Assembly (NCBI RefSeq): GCF_007018965.1
Contig: NZ_VJYZ01000011.1
Span: 1 to 37,527 of the forward strand
DNA from: Paracoccus marinus
GTDB taxonomy: Bacteria; Pseudomonadota; Alphaproteobacteria; Rhodobacterales; Rhodobacteraceae
DNA length: 37,527 nt
Direction of reading: 5' to 3'
The notes under the pieces are model-generated. The model saw only the letters and a list, made by a program, of their open reading frames with translations. It was not told the DNA's origin and ran no database searches. Positions 2,688 through 12,407 of this stretch are shown one piece after another. The position numbers were made by a program, and so were the translations under genes. Position 1 is the stretch's first letter. Each line of letters opens with the position of its first letter.

Positions 2688-5015
2688 ATGGCTGTCAGGC
2701 AGTACACGATGATCAACCTCGGCACACTCGCCGACATGGATCCTAATGAAACGAACCGGACGCCGGAAAACTACGCCACGGTCTTGGGCGGGAAGACCTT
2801 CGGCTCGACGGATTCGCCCCTGTTCGCCAGCAGCACGCGGATTTCGTTGAACGACGTCAACGACAACGGCCTCATCGGGTTCAACCACGACAACAGCACC
2901 GACCGGATCAGCTACCGGATCGGCGACACGGTCTACTCCACCAGGCTTGATACCGGGCTGCGAGTGACGGCCGAGGTCACGCAGCGGATCGAGGGGGGCG
3001 GCACCCGGACCATCACGACCACGCTGCGGGTGTTTCAGGACACCGACGGGCGGGTCTTCATTGCGCCACCGTCCTCCACCAACCCGATCGGCAACGAGAC
3101 GCAGTTGTCGGCCTATCCGATCGTCAGCGTGCAGATTCCGACGAACGCGACCTACGACACCGGGCCATTTGAGGGACTGAATACCAACCGCTCGGTGCTC
3201 AACTTCAAGGACGGCTACATCGATGGCACCGAGGGTGATGACACCATCGACGCAAGCTACGTGGACCCGTCAGGCGACCGGGTGGACAACAACGACGCCC
3301 TGCTGCCGGGGGCGGACCCCAACGACGATTTCATCCGTGCGGGTGCCGGCAACGACCTCGTCTATGCCGGCGACGGTAAGGACGTCGTGTGGGGACGCGA
3401 GGGCAACGACGTCATCTACGGCTACCGGCGGGACGGCGGGGACGACGGCGCAAACGACACGCTCGATGGCGGTGCGGGCGATGACAAGCTGTACGGCGGA
3501 CGCGGGAACGACTCGCTCATCGGCGGGACCGGGAGGGACGAGCTTTATGGCGGCCCCGGGAACGATGTGCTGGATGGCGGCGACGACAACGATCGGCTCG
3601 AGGGTGGCGACGGGGCCGACCTGATCGTCGTCGGCCGCGGCGATACGGCGCTGGGTGGGAACGATGCGGACGTCTTCCGCGTCGATCCCGTGCAGACGGG
3701 CACCGGCGCGGCCACCATCACCGGCGGCGAGGGCGTGACCGCGGGCGGGACCGATGTCGACCGGATCGATGCGAAGGTGATCACCTCGGGCGTCACCGTC
3801 AACTACACCGGCAGCGAGGCCGGCACGCTGTCCGGCGGCGGCGGGAACTACGGGTTCTCCGAGATCGAGCGGGTGACCACCGGGGCGGGGAACGACGTGG
3901 TCAACGCCGCGGAGGTGACGGCGGGCGGCATCAACGTCGACACCGGGGCCGGCGACGACACCATCGTCGGCGGGGCCGGCGCGGACACGATCCTGGCCGG
4001 GGCCGGGGGCGACCGGGTCGATGCCGGCAGGGGCAACGACCAGATCGACCTCGGCGCGGGCGACAACGCGACCGACACGCTGGTGATCCGCAACAACGGC
4101 GGCACCGACACGGTGACGGGGTTTGCGGGCCCGGTGACCAGCCCCACCGGCGTCGTCACCTCCGAGGACAAGCTCGACGTCAGCGGGATGGTGGACCGGG
4201 ACGGCAATCCCGTGGACGTGGCCGATTTCCTCGGCGCGCGGGCGACCGGGACGATCACGCCGCTGAGCGACGCGGGCGGCACGGTCATCGGCTCGGTCCT
4301 GACCTTCCCGGACGGGACGGCCGTGCAGCTGCGCGGCGTCCTTCCCAGCCAGCTCGACAGCTGGCAAGAGCTGAACGCCCTCGGCATCCCCTGCTTTGCC
4401 GCCGGCACGATGATCGAGACGGCCGACGGCCCCCGCGCCGTCGAGACGCTGGCCGAGGGCGACTTGGTCCGCACGCTCGACCACGGGCTGCAGCCGGTGC
4501 GCTGGATCGGCGCGCGGCGGCTCTCGGCGGCCGAGCTTGCGGCGGCCGAGAAGCTGCGGCCGATCCGCATCCGGGCCGGGGCGCTGGGGCCCGAAACGCC
4601 GCGCGCCGATCTGCTCGTCTCGCCGCAGCACCGGGTGCTGGTCCGCTCGCGCATCGCGCAGCGGATGTTCGGGACCGACGAGGTTCTGTTGGCCGCGCGG
4701 CAGCTCTGCCAGCTGGCCGGCATCGACATCGCCGAGGATCTGGCGGCGGTCGAGTACGTCCACATCCTCTTCGACCGGCACGAGGTGGTGATCGCGAACG
4801 GGGCTGCGACCGAGAGCCTCTACACCGGGCCCGAGGCGCTGAAGTCGATCGGCCCGGCCGCGCGGGCCGAGATCCTGGCGCTGTTCCCTGAGCTCGCCAC
4901 GCGCGACTACACCCCGCCGGCCGGCCGCACCCTCGCCTCGGGGCGGATGGCCCGCAAGCTGGCGGTGCGGCATGCACAGAACGGCAGGCCGCTGGTCGAG
5001 GCGCGGGTCGGGTAG
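2688..5015 (+). CDS. RTX calcium-binding repeat protein with C-terminal Hint (Hedgehog/intein) domain
   Basis: The 775-residue protein has no Sec signal peptide. The N-terminal ~180 residues form a domain I do not recognise. From about residue 190 come glycine/aspartate-rich RTX nonapeptides of the GGxGNDxLxG type in two blocks (about 215-325 and 395-460), which bind calcium outside the cell. Residues ~569-715 form a Hint domain: it opens with C569 in CFAAGTMIET, carries the SPQH block with H648, and closes with HEVVIANG at ~698. Such Hint_2 proteins are frequent in Rhodobacterales. By family, RTX proteins leave the cell by type I secretion, and Hint domains can rearrange the peptide bond before their first cysteine, so self-cleavage near residue 568 is possible; this is inference. 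A good ribosome binding site (AAGGGGAAG) precedes the ATG. No secretion genes are nearby. Confidence 0.85.
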   Translation: MAVRQYTMINLGTLADMDPNETNRTPENYATVLGGKTFGSTDSPLFASSTRISLNDVNDNGLIGFNHDNSTDRISYRIGDTVYSTRLDTGLRVTAEVTQRIEGGGTRTITTTLRVFQDTDGRVFIAPPSSTNPIGNETQLSAYPIVSVQIPTNATYDTGPFEGLNTNRSVLNFKDGYIDGTEGDDTIDASYVDPSGDRVDNNDALLPGADPNDDFIRAGAGNDLVYAGDGKDVVWGREGNDVIYGYRRDGGDDGANDTLDGGAGDDKLYGGRGNDSLIGGTGRDELYGGPGNDVLDGGDDNDRLEGGDGADLIVVGRGDTALGGNDADVFRVDPVQTGTGAATITGGEGVTAGGTDVDRIDAKVITSGVTVNYTGSEAGTLSGGGGNYGFSEIERVTTGAGNDVVNAAEVTAGGINVDTGAGDDTIVGGAGADTILAGAGGDRVDAGRGNDQIDLGAGDNATDTLVIRNNGGTDTVTGFAGPVTSPTGVVTSEDKLDVSGMVDRDGNPVDVADFLGARATGTITPLSDAGGTVIGSVLTFPDGTAVQLRGVLPSQLDSWQELNALGIPCFAAGTMIETADGPRAVETLAEGDLVRTLDHGLQPVRWIGARRLSAAELAAAEKLRPIRIRAGALGPETPRADLLVSPQHRVLVRSRIAQRMFGTDEVLLAARQLCQLAGIDIAEDLAAVEYVHILFDRHEVVIANGAATESLYTGPEALKSIGPAARAEILALFPELATRDYTPPAGRTLASGRMARKLAVRHAQNGRPLVEARVG

Positions 5016-5046: not shown

Positions 5047-5145
5047 TCACAACCAGAACATGACGGTTGCGGCGATGCAGATGGCGGAGAGGAAGAGCTC
5101 GCCGCATCTGTCATAGCGGGTCGCGATGCGGCGCCAGTCAGCTTG
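5047..5145 (-). pseudogene. IS5-family transposase remnant, C-terminal tail
   Basis: The minus strand encodes about 30 residues including DWRRIATRYDRC and FLSAICIAATVMFWL, followed by a stop. This matches the C-terminus of IS5-group transposases as I remember them. Upstream of about 5145 the similarity ends and the frame is lost, so the catalytic part is gone. The AGGGTCAGGACTC stretch just beyond the stop (5035-5047) may be what is left of the element's terminal repeat. It marks an old insertion next to the severed riboswitch. Confidence 0.7.
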
Positions 5146-5242
5146 TGCTCCGGCACCGCGAGTTTGGCACATCGTGACGTCCCCCGGGGGGGAGCGGTAT
5201 TCAACCGATCCGTGGACATCATCCCTGCGCCGTGCGACTGTG

Positions 5243-5373
5243 CCCCGGATGGTGTTCGGCCCTTTGGGCCGGCTGAAAAGGGAACGCGGTGCGTCGTCAG
5301 ACAAATCCGCGGCTGCCCCGCAACTGTAAGCGGCGAGCGAAACCGGAGACGCCACTGGGCACCGAGCCCGGGA
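5243..5373 (+). ncRNA. Cobalamin riboswitch, 3' part removed by the IS3 element
   Basis: The plus strand shows the hallmark order of the B12 aptamer. A P3-like hairpin (GGCCCTTTGGGCC) leads into GAAAAGGGAACGCGG, then AATCCGCGG, then CTGCCCCGCAACTGTAAGCG, then GCCACTGG and CCGGGA. In intact examples CGGGA continues into AGGC and ends in a B12 box. Here the sequence stops at 5373, and the next base is the first of the IS3 terminal repeat. The closing P1 strand and expression platform are therefore missing and the gene it controlled is not in this window. The start coordinate is approximate. The nearby TGACCTGCC resembles a B12 box but belongs to the IS end. Confidence 0.8.
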
Positions 5374-5397
5374 TGACCTGCCACTGAACCTTCATCC
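5374..5397 (+). repeat. IS3 left terminal inverted repeat
   Basis: It begins TGACCTGCCACTG and ends near TTCATCC, matching the complement of 6623-6647 at about 18 of 24 positions. It touches the severed riboswitch directly. Confidence 0.8.
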
Positions 5398-6321
5398 AGT
5401 GGCGACATGAGCCCGGTGATCGTCTACGCCCTTTGGCGCTGGTTGAGCAATCGCCCGTCGCGCGGAGCCTTCATCTCGCGCAGCGGCGCGGGCGATTGCG
5501 GGGTGCAGGTTCGCGGCGAAGCCCACGGGGGTCTGGTAGCCCAGGGCCGAGTGGGGCCTTTCGGTGTTATAATCTGAGACCCAAGCGGCGATCAGGTCAC
5601 GGGCATGGACGAGGTTGCGGAACAGGGTCTCGTTCAGAAATTCGTCCCGCATCCTGCCGTTGAAGCTCTCGACAAAGCCGTTCTGCATCGGCTTGCCCGG
5701 CGCGATGTAATGCCATTCGATCTTGTGTTCGGCGCACCACTTCAGGATCGCGTTCGAGGTCAGCTCTGTCCCGTTGTCGCTGACAATCATTCCAGGCCTG
5801 CCGCGGCGTTCGATCAGCGCCGTGAGTTCCCGGGCAACACGGCGGCCCGAGATCGATGTGTCCGGGATCGCCGCCAGACATTCGCGGGTGACGTCGTCGA
5901 CCACGTTCAGCACCCGGAAGCGCCGCCCGCAGGCGAACTGATCATGGACAAAATCCAGCGACCAACGCGCATTGGCCTGCGCTTCGACCAGGATCGGCGC
6001 CCTTGTCCCGAGGGCCTTGCGGCGCGCTTTGCGTTTGCGCACCGTCAGGCCCTCCTCTCGGTAGAGCCGGTAGATGCGATTGATCCCCGACGCCTCGCCT
6101 TCCCGCCTGAGCAGCACGAACAGCCGACGGTAGCCGAACCGTCGCCGCTCGTTGGCCAGGTCCCGCAACCGTCCGCGCAGCGCCGTGTCCGGCGCTCGCT
6201 GGGACTGATAGCGCACCATCGTCCGGTCCGCCCCGGCAATCTGGCACGCCCGCCGTTCCGACAGCCCGAGATGGGCCTTCAGATGCGCGACCGCCTCGCG
6301 CTTCACGGCGGGCGTCACCAC
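5392..6321 (-). CDS. IS3-family transposase OrfB, DDE integrase domain
   Basis: This is the catalytic half of the transposase, about 309 residues from the frameshift point. It has an HTH_21-like segment (LANERRRFGYRRLFVLLRRE) and then an rve integrase core. The three acidic residues are visible in SLDFVHDQ, IVSDNGTEL and FVESFNGR. The next residues, HSALGYQTPVGFA, are the usual IS3 ending. It is made as an OrfAB fusion by -1 frameshifting at the A AAA AAG heptamer (6327-6321), rather than from a start of its own. The stop at 5392-5394 lies within 20 bases of the element's end. Confidence 0.9.
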   Translation of the reverse strand: MVTPAVKREAVAHLKAHLGLSERRACQIAGADRTMVRYQSQRAPDTALRGRLRDLANERRRFGYRRLFVLLRREGEASGINRIYRLYREEGLTVRKRKARRKALGTRAPILVEAQANARWSLDFVHDQFACGRRFRVLNVVDDVTRECLAAIPDTSISGRRVARELTALIERRGRPGMIVSDNGTELTSNAILKWCAEHKIEWHYIAPGKPMQNGFVESFNGRMRDEFLNETLFRNLVHARDLIAAWVSDYNTERPHSALGYQTPVGFAANLHPAIARAAARDEGSARRAIAQPAPKGVDDHRAHVATG

Positions 6322-6581
6322 TTTTTTGACAGCAGTTCCTTCATCGCCGCCATGTCCAGCATCTGGTCGGCCAGCAATCGCTTCAGCCTGGCGTTCTCGT
6401 CTTCGAGCGCCTTCAGCCGCTTCGCCTCCGACACCGTCATCCCGCCGAACTTCGCTTTCCAGGCGTAAAACGTGCCTTCCGACATGCCGTGCTTGCGGCA
6501 CAGATCGGCACACTTCGCGCCAGCATCATGCTCCTGCAGGATGCCGATGATCTGCTCCTCGGTCCGTCGTGCCTTCTTCAT
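6315..6581 (-). CDS. IS3-family transposase OrfA, HTH protein
   Basis: The 88-residue protein starts MKKARRTEEQIIGILQEHD. It has the HTH_Tnp_1 domain (ADLCRKHGMSEGTFYAWKAKFGG) and a leucine-rich coiled coil (LKALEDENARLKRLLADQ), the standard OrfA architecture for binding the terminal repeats and multimerising. I chose the ATG at 6581 because the domain begins immediately after it. It ends LLSKKW at a TGA just past the A AAA AAG slippery heptamer, which shifts ribosomes into OrfB. Confidence 0.9.
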   Translation of the reverse strand: MKKARRTEEQIIGILQEHDAGAKCADLCRKHGMSEGTFYAWKAKFGGMTVSEAKRLKALEDENARLKRLLADQMLDMAAMKELLSKKW

Positions 6582-6622
6582 CTTCGTCCGTCCTCTCGCT
6601 GGGCCGGACTCTAGTCGCAAAT

Positions 6623-6647
6623 GGAGGAAGAATCCCGTGGCAGGTCA
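6623..6647 (-). repeat. IS3 right terminal inverted repeat
   Basis: Read on the minus strand it starts TGACCTGCCACGGG. Its first three bases (6647-6645) also supply the in-frame TGA stop of the truncated ParB-like gene. Confidence 0.8.
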
Positions 6648-7139
6648 CTTGAGGATAGCGACCGTCTCATCGCAGATCCCGTTCAGCATGCGGACCTTAC
6701 GGCGGACGCTCTGGGGGTTGATGTCCAGCGCCTTGGCGATCTTCTCTTCCGGAACGCCACGCTCGATGGCGCGCCGGATCATCTTGTGCTCCTGGACCGG
6801 CGACAACCGACTGATCCGCTTGTTGTAGGTGAAGGCTTCGTCGTCGGTGGAGACCAGGCACTCGACCTGTTCGATGCCGAGGTCTTTCAGCACCTCGATG
6901 CGAACATGCCCGTCCAGCAGAAGGAAGGTGCCCGGATTTGCGGGATCGCGGGCAACCACGGGCGGTTCGACGAGACCGACCTCTCGGATCGAGGCGGTGA
7001 TCTGCTGGTATTTCTTGCTGGATTTCGTGGCCGTCCGAAGCACCCGCACCGGCAGAAGGGCGTCCACGGCCAGGGTCACGCAGTCGTCTTCAAAGGCATG
7101 GGCGACGACATCGGAAAGGCGGCGATCCTTCCGTGTCAT
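6645..7139 (-). pseudogene. Second ParB/RepB-like protein, 3'-truncated by the IS3 element
   Basis: The remaining 164 residues hold a ParB N-terminal (ParB/Srx) domain at about 20-90, with the box LLLDGHVRIEVLKDLG and NKRISRLSPVQEHKMI. An HTH follows at about 125-150 (VPEEKIAKALDINPQSVRRK). The frame ends ILK at the exact IS boundary, and its stop is the TGA of the IS terminus. Relatives I remember continue for well over a hundred more residues with a RepB-type C-terminal domain, so this copy has probably lost that part. The start ATG overlaps the stop of the preceding ParB-like gene by four bases (7136-7139), indicating translational coupling. It may still make a stable N-terminal fragment. 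Confidence 0.8.
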
Positions 7140-8044
7140 GGATCCGTCCTCGCATGTTCCTCCAGATAGGTGGGCATCACCTCGAGGCTTTCGGCACGCA
7201 GCAGGGTGAGGAAGTTCTCGTCGCTCCGCAGCGAGCGGAACGCCTCCGTGACGAACAGAAGCCGACCTTGGGTCAGCTCCGCCTTCTTGATCATCAGCTT
7301 CTGGCGATCGGCTTCCTGACGATAGGCGCGCACGAGTGCATCGCTGGTCAGCGGACGCCCGGTGCGGTTCACCTTGCGGCCGAAGGGCGTTTCATCAACG
7401 CGCCGCCCATGGCGCTGGCGTCGTTCGAGCAGGCGCCGCACGGCCGCGAACTTCTTCCCGCGCAGCTTCTTCTCCGTATAGGCGTCCATTAGCGCGCGCT
7501 GGGCACCTTCGTCATCCGCTCTGGAGATTTCGATCGCGAGGTTCAGCGGCATGAGGCCGGTCTCGACCGCAGACACGAGCCGCTGCTCACCTCGCTCCAG
7601 AAGCCCAGCGATCATGTTGACGTATTCGGGGCTGACCCCGATCTTGTCGGCGATCTCGCGGTCGTTGTAGCCGCGCTTCCGGAGGGTGCCGATTTCCTGC
7701 ATCAGATCGATCGCGCGATGCTGGCGCCTGGCGCAATTCTCGACGAGGCTCATGACCAGGCAGTCGCTCTCGTCGGCATCGATCACGATGGCGGGGATGG
7801 CGTCCTGCTTCAGTTCGATGAAGGCTTCGAGCCGCCCCTGACCACAGACGAGGTCGTATTCTGCTGGCTCTGTGTCCGCGCGCCGGGTCACGGTGATTGG
7901 GCGCTTGAGGCCGATCCGCGCGATGCTCTCGACCATTTCCTCGAACGTTCGCCGGTTGCGCACACGCGGATTGAGGATCCGGATCCTGTCGGTCGGGATG
8001 AGGGTCACATGCTTGTGGTCATCGGTCGGGATGTCTTCGGGCAT
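7136..8044 (-). CDS. ParB/RepB-like protein of the recombinase cassette
   Basis: The 302-residue protein has a ParB/Srx N-terminal domain at about 10-100. It carries NPRVRNRRTFEEMVESIARIG, the nucleotide-binding-like box CGQGRLEAFIEL (a variant of the ParB GERRxRA motif) and the second box VENCARRQHRAIDL. A central HTH follows (NDREIADKIGVSPEYVNMIAGL), then a RepB-like C-terminal domain. Plasmid RepB/ParB proteins bind centromere sites and segregate DNA with ParA/RepA, yet no ParA/RepA gene is present here, so a partition role is doubtful. The start ATG at 8044 overlaps the recombinase stop (TGATG) and is preceded by GGAGGTGG within the recombinase gene, so the two proteins are coupled. The proposed function, such as helping the recombinase assemble on DNA, is inference. 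Confidence 0.8.
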   Translation of the reverse strand: MPEDIPTDDHKHVTLIPTDRIRILNPRVRNRRTFEEMVESIARIGLKRPITVTRRADTEPAEYDLVCGQGRLEAFIELKQDAIPAIVIDADESDCLVMSLVENCARRQHRAIDLMQEIGTLRKRGYNDREIADKIGVSPEYVNMIAGLLERGEQRLVSAVETGLMPLNLAIEISRADDEGAQRALMDAYTEKKLRGKKFAAVRRLLERRQRHGRRVDETPFGRKVNRTGRPLTSDALVRAYRQEADRQKLMIKKAELTQGRLLFVTEAFRSLRSDENFLTLLRAESLEVMPTYLEEHARTDP

Positions 8045-9618
8045 CAGGCCACCTCCGAGAATCTGGCCCTGCCGGCCATTGAAAAGAAGAAGTCGAGCGT
8101 GTCGAAACGATAGGCATCGAGAGACAGGCCGTTCTGCTCGGCCAGCCGAAGTCGATCGGCGGTCATGTCGATGCTTGGGAGGACGTAATAGTCGCGCGGC
8201 GCCGCGTTCAGCTCGTCCATGCGTATGGCGATGGTGATGTCCGGCAAGAGCCCCGTGTCGAGGCGGATGCGCCAGCGCAGCGAGCCTGCCGAGGTCTCGA
8301 AGCATCGCGACAGCACGACCGATACCGTGAATTCGCCGTTGACGGTCAGAAGCTCGGTCCGGGGATCCTGAACGGCACTGCCACCGACGTTTTCGATCCC
8401 GGCGATGACACTCGCCACGACCTGCGGATGGGCCTCGCGGAGCTTGCGGTTGATCTCGATGTATCGGTAGTCACGGTCGGGCTGATATCCGACCATCTCA
8501 TAGGCGCGCAGCAGGCTGCCGAACCGGGACCGGAACGCGCTCGATGATGGCGTGTCCTCGTGTTCGTCGATGACCAGTCCGGAAAGGAAGCCCTTGCTGG
8601 CAAGCAGGGCCCGGAGTGCGTCCAGCAGATCCTGGTCGGAAAGATGGCGGCTGCGTGCATCGACGATTTCCCGGGCGCGTAGGAACAGCGCCTCATCGAC
8701 GATGGCCGGATAGGCGCCCTCGGCGCGGATCCACATCTCGCGCGGGTTCACCACCCGGCGCTGTTTCAGCTTGAAGGAGATCTTGTTGAAGACGTTGTTG
8801 CCGATGTATTTCTCGTTGGTCAGCACCTGATGGACCGTCGCTCGCGTCCACGGCCGTTCGAGATCGGTGCGCAGCCCTTCGGCGTTCAGGACGTCCGCGA
8901 TCTCTCGCTCGGATCGGCCGTCCTCGACGAACATGCGATACATGCGCCGGACGACTTCCTGTTCGTCCTCGGGACCGGGGATGAGAACGACCCTGTCGGT
9001 CTGAAGGCTCTTCTGCTCGCCGCGCGACAGCTCGCCCTTGGGATTGCCGTGCTCGTCGATCAGCACCCGGCGCAGCCCGTATCCGGGCGCGCCGCCCTGA
9101 CGGAAGCCGAGTTCGACGAGGCGGCACTGGCCCGCGAAGACCTTCACCGAGAGTTCGCGGCTGTATTCGCCCGCCATGACCCGCTTCACGGTCTTCAGCA
9201 GGTTCGAGCCGATGCTGCCGTCATTCTCGAACTGCTCGCCGCAGTAGTGGACACGGATCCCGGCGCGCGAGCAGACATGCTCATGGTAGGCGCCTTCGTC
9301 AGCATCCTGAAACCGGCCCCAGCGGCTGACGTCATAGACGAGGATCGCCTTGAAATCCGCTTGCCCGGATTCGACCTCTGCCATCAGGCTCTGCAGCGCC
9401 TCGCGGCCGTCGAGACGGAGACCGCTCCGGCCGGAATCCTCGAAGACACGCAGGATCTCAAGACCGCGATCCGATGCATATTTGCGGATGACGTCGAGCT
9501 GGTTCTCGGTCGAGTATTTCTGATGGTCGGTCGACATCCGGACATAGGCGACCGCAGGCACATCCATCTCGGGCGGGCCGTCGCTCCTATCCGAATTGGT
9601 CGTCCATCGACCGCCCAC
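8044..9618 (-). CDS. Large serine recombinase with an unusual C-terminal region
   Basis: The protein is about 524 residues. A resolvase/invertase catalytic domain (first ~150) carries YVRMSTDHQ with the nucleophilic serine, and DVSRWGRFQDADE with conserved catalytic-domain residues. A Recombinase domain follows at about 190-310 (GYGLRR, WTRATVHQVLTNEKYIGNNVFNK). Unlike phage-type large serine integrases, it has no CxxC zinc ribbon. Instead about residues 325-385 read LLDALRALLASKGFLSG then SAFRSRFGSLLRAYEMVGY, resembling the HNH-associated homing-endonuclease repeat. The C-terminal ~120 residues are unfamiliar. I prefer the GTG at 9618 because GAGGAG stands eight bases upstream; an ATG at 9567 fits family length equally well. 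It is the first gene of a coupled three-gene minus-strand operon. Confidence 0.85.
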   Translation of the reverse strand: MGGRWTTNSDRSDGPPEMDVPAVAYVRMSTDHQKYSTENQLDVIRKYASDRGLEILRVFEDSGRSGLRLDGREALQSLMAEVESGQADFKAILVYDVSRWGRFQDADEGAYHEHVCSRAGIRVHYCGEQFENDGSIGSNLLKTVKRVMAGEYSRELSVKVFAGQCRLVELGFRQGGAPGYGLRRVLIDEHGNPKGELSRGEQKSLQTDRVVLIPGPEDEQEVVRRMYRMFVEDGRSEREIADVLNAEGLRTDLERPWTRATVHQVLTNEKYIGNNVFNKISFKLKQRRVVNPREMWIRAEGAYPAIVDEALFLRAREIVDARSRHLSDQDLLDALRALLASKGFLSGLVIDEHEDTPSSSAFRSRFGSLLRAYEMVGYQPDRDYRYIEINRKLREAHPQVVASVIAGIENVGGSAVQDPRTELLTVNGEFTVSVVLSRCFETSAGSLRWRIRLDTGLLPDITIAIRMDELNAAPRDYYVLPSIDMTADRLRLAEQNGLSLDAYRFDTLDFFFSMAGRARFSEVA

Positions 9619-9711
9619 GCACACATCTCCTCGTCATTCCAGGCAAATTCGTCCAATCCGCGTGAAGCTGCGGCTGAATCCCCTCGTCCATGTAAAGCGA
9701 GGGAGGCCGGA
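9619..9711. promoter_or_regulatory. Divergent control region between recombinase and HTH gene
   Basis: These 93 bases must hold the promoters for both directions. CCCTCG at 9681-9686 is mirrored by CGAGGG at 9698-9703 around an 11-base centre. The right arm overlaps the GGGAGG ribosome binding site of the plus-strand gene, so a bound protein or hairpin could block its translation or transcription. No convincing -35/-10 pair is visible by eye. Confidence 0.4.
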
Positions 9712-10146
9712 ATGTCGTTTCCGAAAAAGGGCAAGTTCTTTCCGACAGAAAACGGATATACTGGGAATGGTCGGCACAAGCCGGACAACTGGTTCGCCGA
9801 TGAGATCGCATCAGCCCTGAGGCGATCTCTCGGAGACAGCCGGGCGGGAGCGAAGATCGTCGCCTCCTGGACCGGAGCCAACGAGAAGACGGTGAAGAAC
9901 TGGTTCGCCGGCAGATACGGCCCGAGCGGAGAGCATCTGATCGCTCTGGCGCGACACTCCGACGAGGTGCTGGGGGTGTTCCTCGCAATGGCCGGGCGTG
10001 AGGAGCTGATGGTGGCCATGAAGCTCGCGGCCGCAGAGCAGGCGATCGAGGAGCTACTGGTGGCGGTCCGCCGACTGACGGTCGACGATGAACCCGACGA
10101 CGCCGAAGCATCGCCCGACGGGGCGGATTTTACCGTCCGCCAATGA
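9712..10146 (+). CDS. Small helix-turn-helix protein linked to the recombinase cassette
   Basis: The 144-residue protein starts MSFPKKGKFFPTENGYTG after a GGGAGG ribosome binding site. Residues ~25-80 form an XRE-like helix-turn-helix (IVASWTGANEKTVKNWFAGRYGPSGEHLIALARHSD). A helical segment (MKLAAAEQAIEELLVAVRRL) follows, and then an acidic tail (DDEPDDAEASPD). It is divergent from the recombinase and separated by only ~90 bases, so it is a natural candidate for the cassette's regulator. I remember near-identical proteins in other alphaproteobacteria but know of no assigned function. No enzyme motif is visible. Confidence 0.7.
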   Translation: MSFPKKGKFFPTENGYTGNGRHKPDNWFADEIASALRRSLGDSRAGAKIVASWTGANEKTVKNWFAGRYGPSGEHLIALARHSDEVLGVFLAMAGREELMVAMKLAAAEQAIEELLVAVRRLTVDDEPDDAEASPDGADFTVRQ

Positions 10147-10165: not shown

Positions 10166-10194
10166 CTCCCGTGCTATCTGATATGGCACGGGAG
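10166..10194. terminator. Hairpin terminator after the HTH gene
   Basis: CTCCCGTGC (10166-10174) pairs perfectly with GCACGGGAG (10186-10194) around an 11-base loop, 20 bases after the HTH gene's stop. There is no long T-run, only a short GAGAGTT tail, so termination would be weak or factor-assisted. Confidence 0.5.
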
Positions 10195-10464
10195 AGAGTT
10201 GGGTGCCTGAGTCAGCCGCTCCGCCACTTGCCTAGATTTATCGTTGTTTATCAGCCTCTTGCGGGACTGATCGTCAAACCGCTTCGGCGGGTTTGACAGT
10301 TGCAGTTTCGTCGGGTGCTTTCCCGAGCGCAAGCATTCTGGGCCGTAGCTGGAAAAGCGGTTGTGCCCCGCGTTGAAGCGGCTCCGCGAAGCCGTCGCGG
10401 CGTCGTAGCTGCGCACCGCGGCGGGCGCAGTGCTGCGGTTGAACAGGCGGGGCCAGGGGCGCAT
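10174..10464 (-). pseudogene. Possible relic of a lambda-type phage portal gene, N-terminal part
   Basis: A minus-strand ATG at 10464 follows a GGAG site and opens a frame starting MRPWPRLFNRSTAP, then AAVRSYDAATASR. The R-x-Y-D-A-A pattern after a basic LF segment recalls the start of lambda-family portal proteins. Similarity fades within ~40 residues, and the frame then runs through low-complexity sequence to 10174. There is no other phage gene nearby. This is a weak resemblance and may be chance. Confidence 0.2.
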
Positions 10465-10695
10465 TCTGCCTGTCTCCTGGCTTACGGGGTACCGGCCTCG
10501 CGCCGTGCGAGCAGACGTTCGACGGATGGCATCCCATGTCAGCGGGATAAATGCTTCGCTCACCAGCTATGCGAGCCGCAGCTGTAGCCCGATACGGCGC
10601 TTTGCCGGTCCGCGTTCGATGGAGCGGCACGCGGTACGTCGGTGCCTTGGTCACACGTGCGCCTGCTGACCGCGCCGCGCGTGGTTCTCACCGAC
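10195..10695. other. Relic stretch without a confident gene
   Basis: About 500 bases lie between the HTH gene's terminator and the dppF stop. They contain a tetraloop hairpin (10273-10297), a portal-like minus-strand relic, and a GCCAGGAGACAGGC sequence on the minus strand near 10470-10485 that looks like a B12 box without its riboswitch core. I see no intact gene, tRNA or IS end. It may mark the right edge of the accessory region. Confidence 0.5.
10273..10297. repeat. Tetraloop hairpin
   Basis: GTCAAACC (10273-10280) pairs with GGTTTGAC (10290-10297), with an inner GC-TTCG-GC. A TTCG tetraloop on such a stem is very stable RNA. No T-run follows. It could be a terminator or RNA-stability element of a gene that is now lost. 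Confidence 0.55.
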
Positions 10696-11538
10696 TTACC
10701 CCGCCGCGCGCTCCAGCCGCCGGCGCTCGACCCTTGCGCGGATCGCGTCCAGGTCCGCCTCGGGCGTCGCCGCGAACAGCTTTTGCGTGTAGTCGTGCTG
10801 CGGGGCCGAGAACAGCGCGTCGCGCGTGCCTTCCTCGACCACGGTGCCGTTCCACAGGACCATCACCCGGTCCGCGAGGTAGCGCACCACGCTCAGGTCG
10901 TGGCTGATGAAGACGTAGGTCAGGCCGAACTCGTCCTGCAGGTCCTTCAGCAGGTTCAGCACCTGCGCCTGAACCGACAGGTCCAGCGCGCTGACCGGCT
11001 CGTCCAGGACCAGCAACGCGGGGTTCAGCATCAGCGCGCGGGCGATGGCGATCCGCTGGCGCTGCCCGCCCGAGAACATGTGCGGAAAGCGGTTGTAGTG
11101 TTCCGGCTTCAGCCCGACCCGTTCCAGCATGGCCATCGCGCGGCGGCGGCGGTCGGCGGCGGGGACGCCGCCGCGCAGGCGCAGCGGCTCGGTCAGGACC
11201 TGGCCCACCTTCTGGCGCGGGTTCAGGCTGCCGTAGGGGTTCTGGAACACGATCTGCACGGCCGAGCGCATGTCGCGCGTCAGGCCGCCCCTGGCGATGT
11301 CCACGGGCTTGCCCTCGATCCGCAGCTCGCCGCTGGTCGCGGGGTCGATCAGGGTGATGATCCGCGCCAGGGTGGACTTGCCGCAGCCGCTTTCGCCGAC
11401 CACGGCCAGCGTCTTGCCGCGTTCGACGGCGAAGTCGATGCCCTTGAGCGCCCGCACGGTCTTGGCCTTGCCGAACAGGCCGCCGCCCGTGACGTAGTCG
11501 CGGGTGATGCCGCGGCCTTCGACGACGTAATCGGTCAT
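10696..11538 (-). CDS. dppF: Dipeptide/oligopeptide ABC transporter ATP-binding protein
   Basis: The 280-residue protein hydrolyses ATP for peptide import together with its DppD-like partner. Walker A is GESGCGKST at 48-55, the Q-loop is [13 protein letters not shown], the signature is [15 protein letters not shown], Walker B is [12 protein letters not shown], and the switch histidine is in FISHDL. The C-terminal oligopeptide extension is short, so the protein is shorter than the ~330 residues of Escherichia coli DppF. The start ATG at 11538 overlaps the stop of the upstream ATPase gene (ATGA), and it is the last gene of the operon. Confidence 0.9.
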
Positions 11539-12407
11539 CGTGCGCCCTCCATATCGGCGGCCATCAGTTCGTCCACGGTCGGCAGCCGGTCGCCGGTGGC
11601 GTTTTCGGGCAGCGCGGCCAGCAGGGCGCGCGTGTAGGCGGTGGCGGGGCGTTCGAACAGGGTCAGCACGTCGGCTTCTTCCATCTTGCGGCCGCGGTAT
11701 TGCACCACGACCCGGTCGGCGGTCTCGGCGACGACGCCCATGTCGTGGGTGATGAGGATCAGCCCCATCCCGCGTTCGGCCTGCAACTTCATCAGCAGGT
11801 CCAGGATCTGTTTCTGGATCGTCACGTCCAGCGCGGTCGTCGGTTCGTCGGCGATCAGCAGGCGCGGCTCGCAGGCGATGGCCATCGCGATCATCACCCG
11901 CTGGCACTGGCCGCCCGACATCTGGTGGGGATAGCTCGCAAGCCGGCTTTCCGGTTCGGGGATGCCGACTTGGGTCAACAGTTCCACCGCCCGGGCCCGC
12001 GCCGCCCGGCCCTTGAGGCCGAGATGCTGGCGCAGCACCTCCTCGATCTGGAAGCCGACGTTGAAGCTGGGGTTCAGCGACGCCATCGGTTCCTGGAAGA
12101 TCATGGCGATGTCGCGGCCGATGATCGTGCGACGCTCGGCCGGAGTCATCGCCAGCAGGTCGCGCCCGTCGAAGATCATGGCGTCGGCGGTGACGGTGGC
12201 GGAATCCGGCAGCAGGCCCATGACGGCCAGCATCGACACCGACTTGCCCGAGCCGCTTTCGCCGACGATGGCCAGCACCTCGCGCGCCGACACCTGCACG
12301 TCGATGCCGTCCACGGCAAGGAACGGACCGGCGGCCGTGTCGAACGCCACCCGCAGGTTGCGGATGTCGAGCAGCGGGCCGGCCGAGTTCGTGGAAAAAA
12401 CCGCCAT
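11535..12407 (-). CDS. dppD: Dipeptide/oligopeptide ABC transporter ATP-binding protein
   Basis: This 290-residue ATPase pairs with the DppF-like subunit. Walker A is GESGSGKS at 49-56, the Q-loop is [13 protein letters not shown], and Walker B is [12 protein letters not shown]. The signature reads [16 protein letters not shown], where the usual SGGQRQR has a cysteine in place of the first arginine, a mild oddity. The oligopeptide_HPY-type C-terminus ends [16 protein letters not shown]. The start ATG at 12407 lies two bases after the permease stop, and the ribosome binding site GCGGAG lies inside the permease gene. Confidence 0.9.

Follow-up and report, generated by a model that had tools for sequence, protein, structure and literature searches.

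A gene module of a large serine recombinase, two ParB-like proteins and a conserved structured RNA in prophages, genomic islands and plasmids

What would a large serine recombinase do with two ParB-like proteins and no ParA? The question is raised by a stretch of 37,527 nt from Paracoccus marinus (contig NZ_VJYZ01000011.1 of assembly GCF_007018965.1, positions 1 to 37,527), which we call the window. Three minus-strand genes in it encode a large serine recombinase (LSR) and two ParB-domain proteins, here named ParB1 and ParB2, and a gene for a small helix-turn-helix (HTH) protein runs in the other direction. A sequence-only reading of the window had described this arrangement, with coupling of the three genes at TGATG and ATGA, and had proposed that it may be a self-contained module. 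We confirmed the coordinates (Table 1), and the listed starts of the HTH and recombinase genes are 87 bp apart.

We found that these genes recur as a unit in other bacteria and that, in many copies, ParB2 is followed by a conserved structured RNA. The RNA is invisible from the window alone, where it is absent through damage by an IS3-family element. The window holds a crippled member, and the interest lies with the intact family and its RNA. Our favored reading, drawn from sequence comparison, is that the module may encode an RNA-dependent recombinase complex, loaded by the two ParB-like proteins and acting against rival mobile DNA, and that it is apparently carried as cargo. We put the probability of this reading at roughly 0.37.

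The gene set and the RNA behind it

With ParB1 we found 40 genome loci. The recombinase, ParB1 and ParB2 are matched together in 37 of them and the HTH gene in 31 (tblastn), so the four-gene neighborhood is conserved. These four are the recurring genes, and their order is kept, with the HTH gene pointing away from an operon that runs recombinase, ParB1, ParB2. Flanking genes vary among loci, near-copies excepted, and the three operon genes stay linked from Alphaproteobacteria to Acidobacteria. No ParA or RepA gene is listed in the nine annotated plasmid stretches that carry the module, for which the PLSDB gene tables are incomplete, and no ParA-type gene appears as a fifth recurring gene among those shared by the loci. 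A literature search found no description of such a module.

One alternative is that these are ordinary plasmid partition genes beside an unrelated resolvase. The plasmid database does name the relatives "plasmid partitioning protein RepB C-terminal domain", but the linkage of the three genes from Alphaproteobacteria to Acidobacteria, with no ParA seen, contradicts this explanation. We consider it very improbable and side with the sequence-only reading that the module is self-contained; none of the findings which that reading had named as counting against it turned up.

The stretch downstream of ParB2 is more conserved than the genes (alignment of 16 loci) and corresponds to an RNA of about 110 nt. 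A profile search located the RNA in 61 of 96 loci, and the final set has 62 full-length and 4 truncated instances. ParB2 stands directly before the RNA in 53 of the 58 loci that could be tested, where the match ends a median of 24 bp short of the RNA; ParB2 is missing in five, and four more loci could not be judged. Conversely, the RNA follows 49 of the 72 full-length ParB2 genes for which 250 bp or more of downstream sequence was available. The loci behind these counts are not independent, as near-copies such as L051 and L105, which come from one record, were kept. Across 289 alphaproteobacterial genomes, ParB1 (E <= 1e-40) occurs in 16, the window's own genome included, the RNA in 12 and both in 8, where 0.7 would be expected by chance (hypergeometric P 5e-9, uncorrected for kinship). 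The four RNA-bearing genomes that have no ParB1 match still have ParB2 before the RNA (L058, L061, L062 and L063).

The predicted structure has six helices, two of them forming a possible H-type pseudoknot, and invariant stretches. In an alignment of 50 sequences (A2), paired cells amount to 97.9% against 93.0 +/- 0.3% in shuffles, and there are 66 double-change cells against 12.7 +/- 3.0, with 10 pairs showing double changes; the structure was partly drawn from covariation in this same alignment, so the test leans its way. When the structure is slid along the alignment, only 28.6-47.4% of cells pair. Examples of covariation are columns 37-72 (GC to AU in 11 rows), 51-60 (CG to GC in 6 and to UA in 5) and 12-30 (CG to GC in 7). 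The given strand is preferred over its reverse, with alifold energies of -34.65 vs -21.21, or -72.75 vs -65.15 with RIBOSUM scoring (like settings), and it has 101 G-U cells vs 10 A-C cells. The identity of the RNA does not track that of ParB2: in L060 the values are 93.9% for the RNA vs 45.6% for ParB2, and in L059 93.0% vs 43.3%. More hairpins follow the core, including a strong, G+C-rich, terminator-like hairpin in many of 45 tails.

No Rfam 15 family matches at gathering score in the nine loci scanned, six of which hold the intact RNA (L004, L007, L008, L016, L038 and L044), and in the loci to which ARAGORN was applied it detected no tRNA within a module. We rejected two other identities for the conserved stretch. 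As a coding region, it has stops in 15-25 of the 50 rows in every frame as well as single-base length changes. As a riboswitch for the next gene, it would have to serve downstream genes that vary among loci.

Some RNAs stand apart from ParB2. We found no ParB2 upstream of the RNA in L107 (P. versutus pTAV1, RNA at 12001-12133) or in L109 (a Roseomonas marmotae plasmid, RNA at 10001-10117). In L079 and L095 (positions ~440-610), the HTH start motif is about 20 bp from the RNA; the three operon genes are gone and the RNA is kept. In L095 this internal-deletion form adjoins phage tail genes.

A few other loci are unusual. The acidobacterial L029, L030, L031, L033 and L036 have a small Cys-rich gene, zinc-finger-like by eye, upstream of the recombinase on the operon strand. 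L053 (NZ_CP110863.1) is a linear 13-kb record labelled Lactiplantibacillus plantarum that carries the mainly proteobacterial module and is likely to be contaminated or mislabelled. In the ParB1 tree, a copy from Hyphomicrobiales clusters with L027, which is a contig from a metagenome-assembled genome of Acidobacteriaceae, either by transfer or by a binning error.

Carriers and the role of the recombinase

The carriers differ and include prophages, genomic islands and plasmids. ParB1 relatives are found on 215 plasmid records, and 47 of these cover at least 80% of its length. The recombinase has matches in 113 records of the phage reference genomes, and one of them, MT837206, covers 80% of it; the same record is the only one of six ParB1-matching phage records that reaches 80% coverage. 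The RNA was not found in the phage reference genomes.

The recombinase itself resembles large serine integrases of the phiC31, Bxb1 and SPbeta types. It has Resolvase (E 4e-21) and Recombinase (E 5e-26) domains in Pfam, its catalytic motifs, including the serine motif, are invariant in 18 aligned relatives, it matches solved large serine integrases, and its PHROGs family is phrog_95, integrase. Unlike these integrases, it has no zinc-ribbon or coiled-coil Pfam match at E <= 1 in its C-terminal ~200 residues, and it does not appear to serve several of the carriers as their integrase. The nearest NCBIfam model is CcrB, at 63.6 bits far under the cut-off of 900, which does not make it a CcrB equivalog.

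With such an enzyme, the module could be the carriers' own integration-excision system, in which the recombinase integrates and the ParB-like proteins, perhaps with the RNA, set the direction. We find this possible but doubtful. The integrase family and the nearness to CcrB speak for it, as do the precedent of the Dehalococcoides ssrA islands discussed below and the nearness of the module to island ends. In two pairs of related units with unlike flanks (L010 and L034, L015 and L016), the common sequence breaks off sharply on the left at TGGCGGAG, an edge identical to the 3' end of tRNA-Ser. Intact tRNA-Ser genes with the same downstream DNA are present in genomes G034 and G236. The edge lies 80-2102 bp beyond the HTH gene in 12 of 30 loci, the window included, in a survey where left ends were chosen by eye; it is also seen in L051 and L085. 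One small island, L012, has both ends, with the repeat at 5127 and an intact tRNA-Ser at 10667-10756, and no other integrase was confirmed in it. This case raises the odds of an integration module and lowers those of our favored reading.

A broken frame beside the tRNA-Ser of L012 might be a remnant of a tyrosine integrase, but its pieces, scanned separately, give only a sub-threshold match to DUF6538 (E 0.032), a domain found at the start of some tyrosine integrases. We disfavor the tRNA-Ser-like end as the attachment site of the module's own recombinase. The window genome has two more tRNA-Ser-like ends that lack the module and adjoin other genes (G000:C20:83281 and C13:12716, loci L097 and L104).

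The virus records point both ways. In six of the 20 that bear the RNA (G313, G289, G293, G296, G297 and G302), the RNA sits no more than 2.4 kb from one end of the record, and a different LSR lies no more than 5.5 kb from the opposite end. These opposite-end LSRs score 48-66 bits, vs 82-94 for the module's own LSR in other records. A tyrosine integrase is present in 2 of 17 records (G298 and G300). In seven virus records, G300 among them, the sole PF07508 protein detected has a score like that of the module's LSR, as an integration module would have it. By eye, phage tail genes adjoin the RNA in several virus records. Because several carriers have another integrase, the recombinase is apparently not the mover of those carriers, and the module itself appears to be end-located cargo. 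Flanks and end sequences not common to all modules also argue against an integration module, as does the occurrence of the unit on plasmids and beside Tn7-like genes, which it directly adjoins in the plasmid copies L047 and L052. A survey of Paracoccus prophages describes serine recombinases without known sites (PMC6536676).

The sequence-only reading had also suggested that the recombinase might move the cassette. In its strict form, an independent transposon mobilized by the recombinase that it encodes, this is improbable. Similar units do occur in unrelated contexts, and the homology blocks of several pairs stop at the 3' side of the HTH gene and near the terminator-like hairpin. However, GGCACGCC-type motifs were sought at the left side of 24 loci as shared module ends and none was consistent; no search covered sites that lack just this unit. 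These missing ends, together with the six records that have another LSR at the far end, lead us to disfavor movement by the recombinase, a judgment that L012 tempers.

For plasmids and plasmid-like prophages, the module might instead be a stability unit, with the recombinase acting to resolve multimers while the ParB-like pair, in the absence of ParA, would hold or spread DNA. Both ParB proteins do have the RepB domain known from repABC and parABS systems, and ParB_N as well, although that of ParB2 is below cut-off. The many plasmid relatives of ParB1 agree with this idea, and toxin-antitoxin genes of the ParD/ParE type are annotated beside the module in L106 (7476-8046). By eye, a ParD/ParE-like region also adjoins several chromosomal copies, and one lies beside the HTH gene in L004, L012, L013 and L043. 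Unlike repABC and parABS, however, the module has no ParA/RepA or RepC, and none of the nine annotated plasmid stretches lists a ParA/RepA; its ParB genes share their operon with a recombinase gene, and many copies add an RNA. Integrated islands and the ends of prophages are frequent locations too, and the recombinase is a large integrase-type enzyme rather than a small resolvase. We therefore think a stability unit unlikely.

What the module may do

We return to the favored reading, an RNA-dependent recombinase complex against rival mobile DNA. Under this reading the HTH protein would repress the divergent promoters by way of the invariant stretch over its own start. The RNA would be transcribed as the last, 3' section of the operon, probably be processed, and then bind the recombinase or a ParB-like protein and gate its activity. 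The ParB-like pair would act as clamps of the cytidine triphosphate (CTP) type that spread on or hold DNA, and the target would be incoming or competing DNA. A bolder version is that the recombinase works as a ribonucleoprotein, with the RNA as scaffold, switch or guide, and that with the two ParA-free ParB clamps it forms an immune-like system between prophages, islands and plasmids. We think this version unlikely on present comparisons. If it were true, it would be, to our knowledge, the first RNA-dependent serine recombinase; as far as we know, serine recombinases are regarded as protein-only enzymes.

The position near element ends, taken together with the neighboring genes, suggests competition between mobile elements. 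We collected 199 flank proteins (none longer than 900 residues, six near-copies dropped, no background set) and scanned 111 of them. The 25 families listed include WYL (5), AbiEii (3), HNH_2 (3), Mrr (2), DNA methylase (2), TniB (2) and TniQ (2), and PADLOC gave a similar result on the flanks. These neighbors would fit an accessory or defense neighborhood. Defense of the locus, one of the uses put forward from the window alone, is possible by context. Prophages and their satellites keep antiviral genes in hotspots (PMC9122126).

A number of results weigh against our favored reading, in addition to island L012 and the seven virus records. The defense-type flank counts are small. PADLOC has no match for the recombinase or the HTH protein, and its matches to the ParB-like proteins are weak, bear the names methyltransferase or CARF, and do not amount to a known anti-phage system. 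The structure model of the recombinase is weak (predicted local distance difference test, pLDDT, 68.5), and its C-terminal part has no clear structural match. In the RNA alignment, further pair types are not above shuffles (28 vs 26.1; 93 of 500 shuffles), and the RNA is scattered on the ParB1 tree (13 changes vs a shuffled mean of 18.8). No intact RNA is in place behind 23 of the 72 full-length ParB2 genes, which include the acidobacterial L029-L033, L035 and L036 and the Agrobacterium/Rhizobium plasmid loci L045-L047; also among the 23, L051 and L105 have a truncated RNA and L011 a decayed one. As RNA-less modules exist, the RNA must be dispensable for some versions or replaced there. Finally, five RNAs lack ParB2 (L079, L088, L095, L107 and L109) and may be relics or have a separate role.

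The same absence from 23 of 72 modules would suit an RNA that serves solely in regulation or processing at the 3' end of the operon, with no role in DNA recombination. Such an element would be expected where the RNA is found, on the same strand, directly after ParB2 and often before a terminator-like hairpin. Its conservation, however, is far above that of the neighboring genes, and the predicted pseudoknot and invariant stretches also count against this explanation, which we hold to be tentative at best.

IS607-type elements have a serine recombinase in a mobile unit with TnpB and a structured omega RNA at the 3' side. The present module is like them in combining a serine recombinase and a structured 3' RNA in a mobile setting, and unlike IS607 elements and IStrons in that there is no TnpB-like gene among its recurring genes and that its recombinase is of another type.

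The combination of recombinase, ParB and RNA is not unique. PMC3146451 describes ssrA islands of Dehalococcoides with a CcrB-like LSR clustered with a ParBc-domain protein and a structured, tRNA-like RNA (the dsiB/dsiA module), for which a role in integration was proposed. As described there, that module has one ParB, a further recombinase of small size, genes such as mom, and a recombinase gene that overlaps attL, and its tRNA-like RNA lies inside mom. Here there are two RepB-type ParBs, the RNA is not a tRNA and comes after ParB2, and several carriers have other integrases. The genes, the RNA and the relation to the carrier therefore differ between the two.

In many alphaproteobacteria the recombinase is linked to a structured RNA whose rate of change is below that of the proteins, which are only ~45% alike, and this suggests that RNA may join in or control site-specific recombination. 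The RNA is a searchable family with no Rfam match, for which a covariance model is available. The ParA-free ParB proteins gain a setting where their role can be tested, in a unit that lies near prophage and island ends, where accessory and antiviral genes are frequent.

The window copy

Table 1. Features of the module and its immediate surroundings in the window.
Feature	Position	Strand	Remarks
Large serine recombinase gene	8044-9624	-	526 aa from GTG, true start uncertain; Resolvase + Recombinase domains
ParB1 gene	7136-8044	-	302 aa; ParB_N + RepB; TGATG overlap with recombinase stop
ParB2 gene, truncated	6645-7139	-	first 164 of ~305 aa; ATGA overlap with ParB1
HTH-type protein gene	9712-10146	+	144 aa, divergent from operon; matched in 31/40 relatives
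Near-invariant stretch across HTH start codons, CTTGCCCTTTTTCGGAAACGACATTCC on minus strand	9709-9735	-	candidate operator; alignment A5
Hairpin 3' of HTH stop, CTCCCGTGC...GCACGGGAG	10166-10195	+	likely HTH-gene terminator; sequence reading
Likely carrier-island end TGGCGGAG	10219-10226	-	like tRNA-Ser 3' end (reverse complement), 80 bp beyond HTH stop
IS3-family element truncating ParB2	5374-6647	-	two transposase frames

The window had been read as having two ParB-domain proteins, which stands for ParB1 (ParB_N 3e-9, RepB 5e-34 in Pfam) and in part for ParB2, where RepB is found (1.5e-13) and ParB_N is weak and below cut-off (0.038) in a protein cut short by the IS3 element. The two are distant paralogs, with 21% identity over 122 columns between ParB1 of the window and ParB2 of L005, and the best PHROGs families of both are of unknown function. 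The alignments show variants of the ParB nucleotide boxes, GQGR and EN..R in ParB1 and DGHxR in ParB2. For the HTH protein, Pfam gives no match over cut-off and PHROGs gives phrog_23106 (E 6e-7). The first stretch of its gene is near-invariant, including silent positions (alignment A5, 16 loci), and is likely an operator candidate.

The damage to ParB2 is clear from its relatives, which are ~305 residues long and continue for ~140 more after the point where the window protein ends. DNA homology to six close relatives stops at 6648-6649, where the IS3 element starts. The tips of the element match over 11 bp at the ends and at 17 of 40 positions overall; we looked for a target duplication and saw none, and one copy of the element was found in the genome. 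The C-terminal half of a relative's ParB2 has no match anywhere in the 3.13-Mb assembly, although, in an assembly of 38 contigs, a gap might in principle explain this. The conserved RNA of the relatives was not found in the window genome either, which we attribute to the IS3 damage. Judged by what it lacks, half of ParB2 and the RNA, the window copy is probably inactive.

A cobalamin riboswitch (Rfam RF00174, 68 bits) lies at 5233-5447 (+) of the window; its 3' part enters the IS3 element from 5374 and it looks interrupted. Farther from the module, 2688-5015 (+) encodes a 775-residue protein that has both RTX repeats and a Hint domain.

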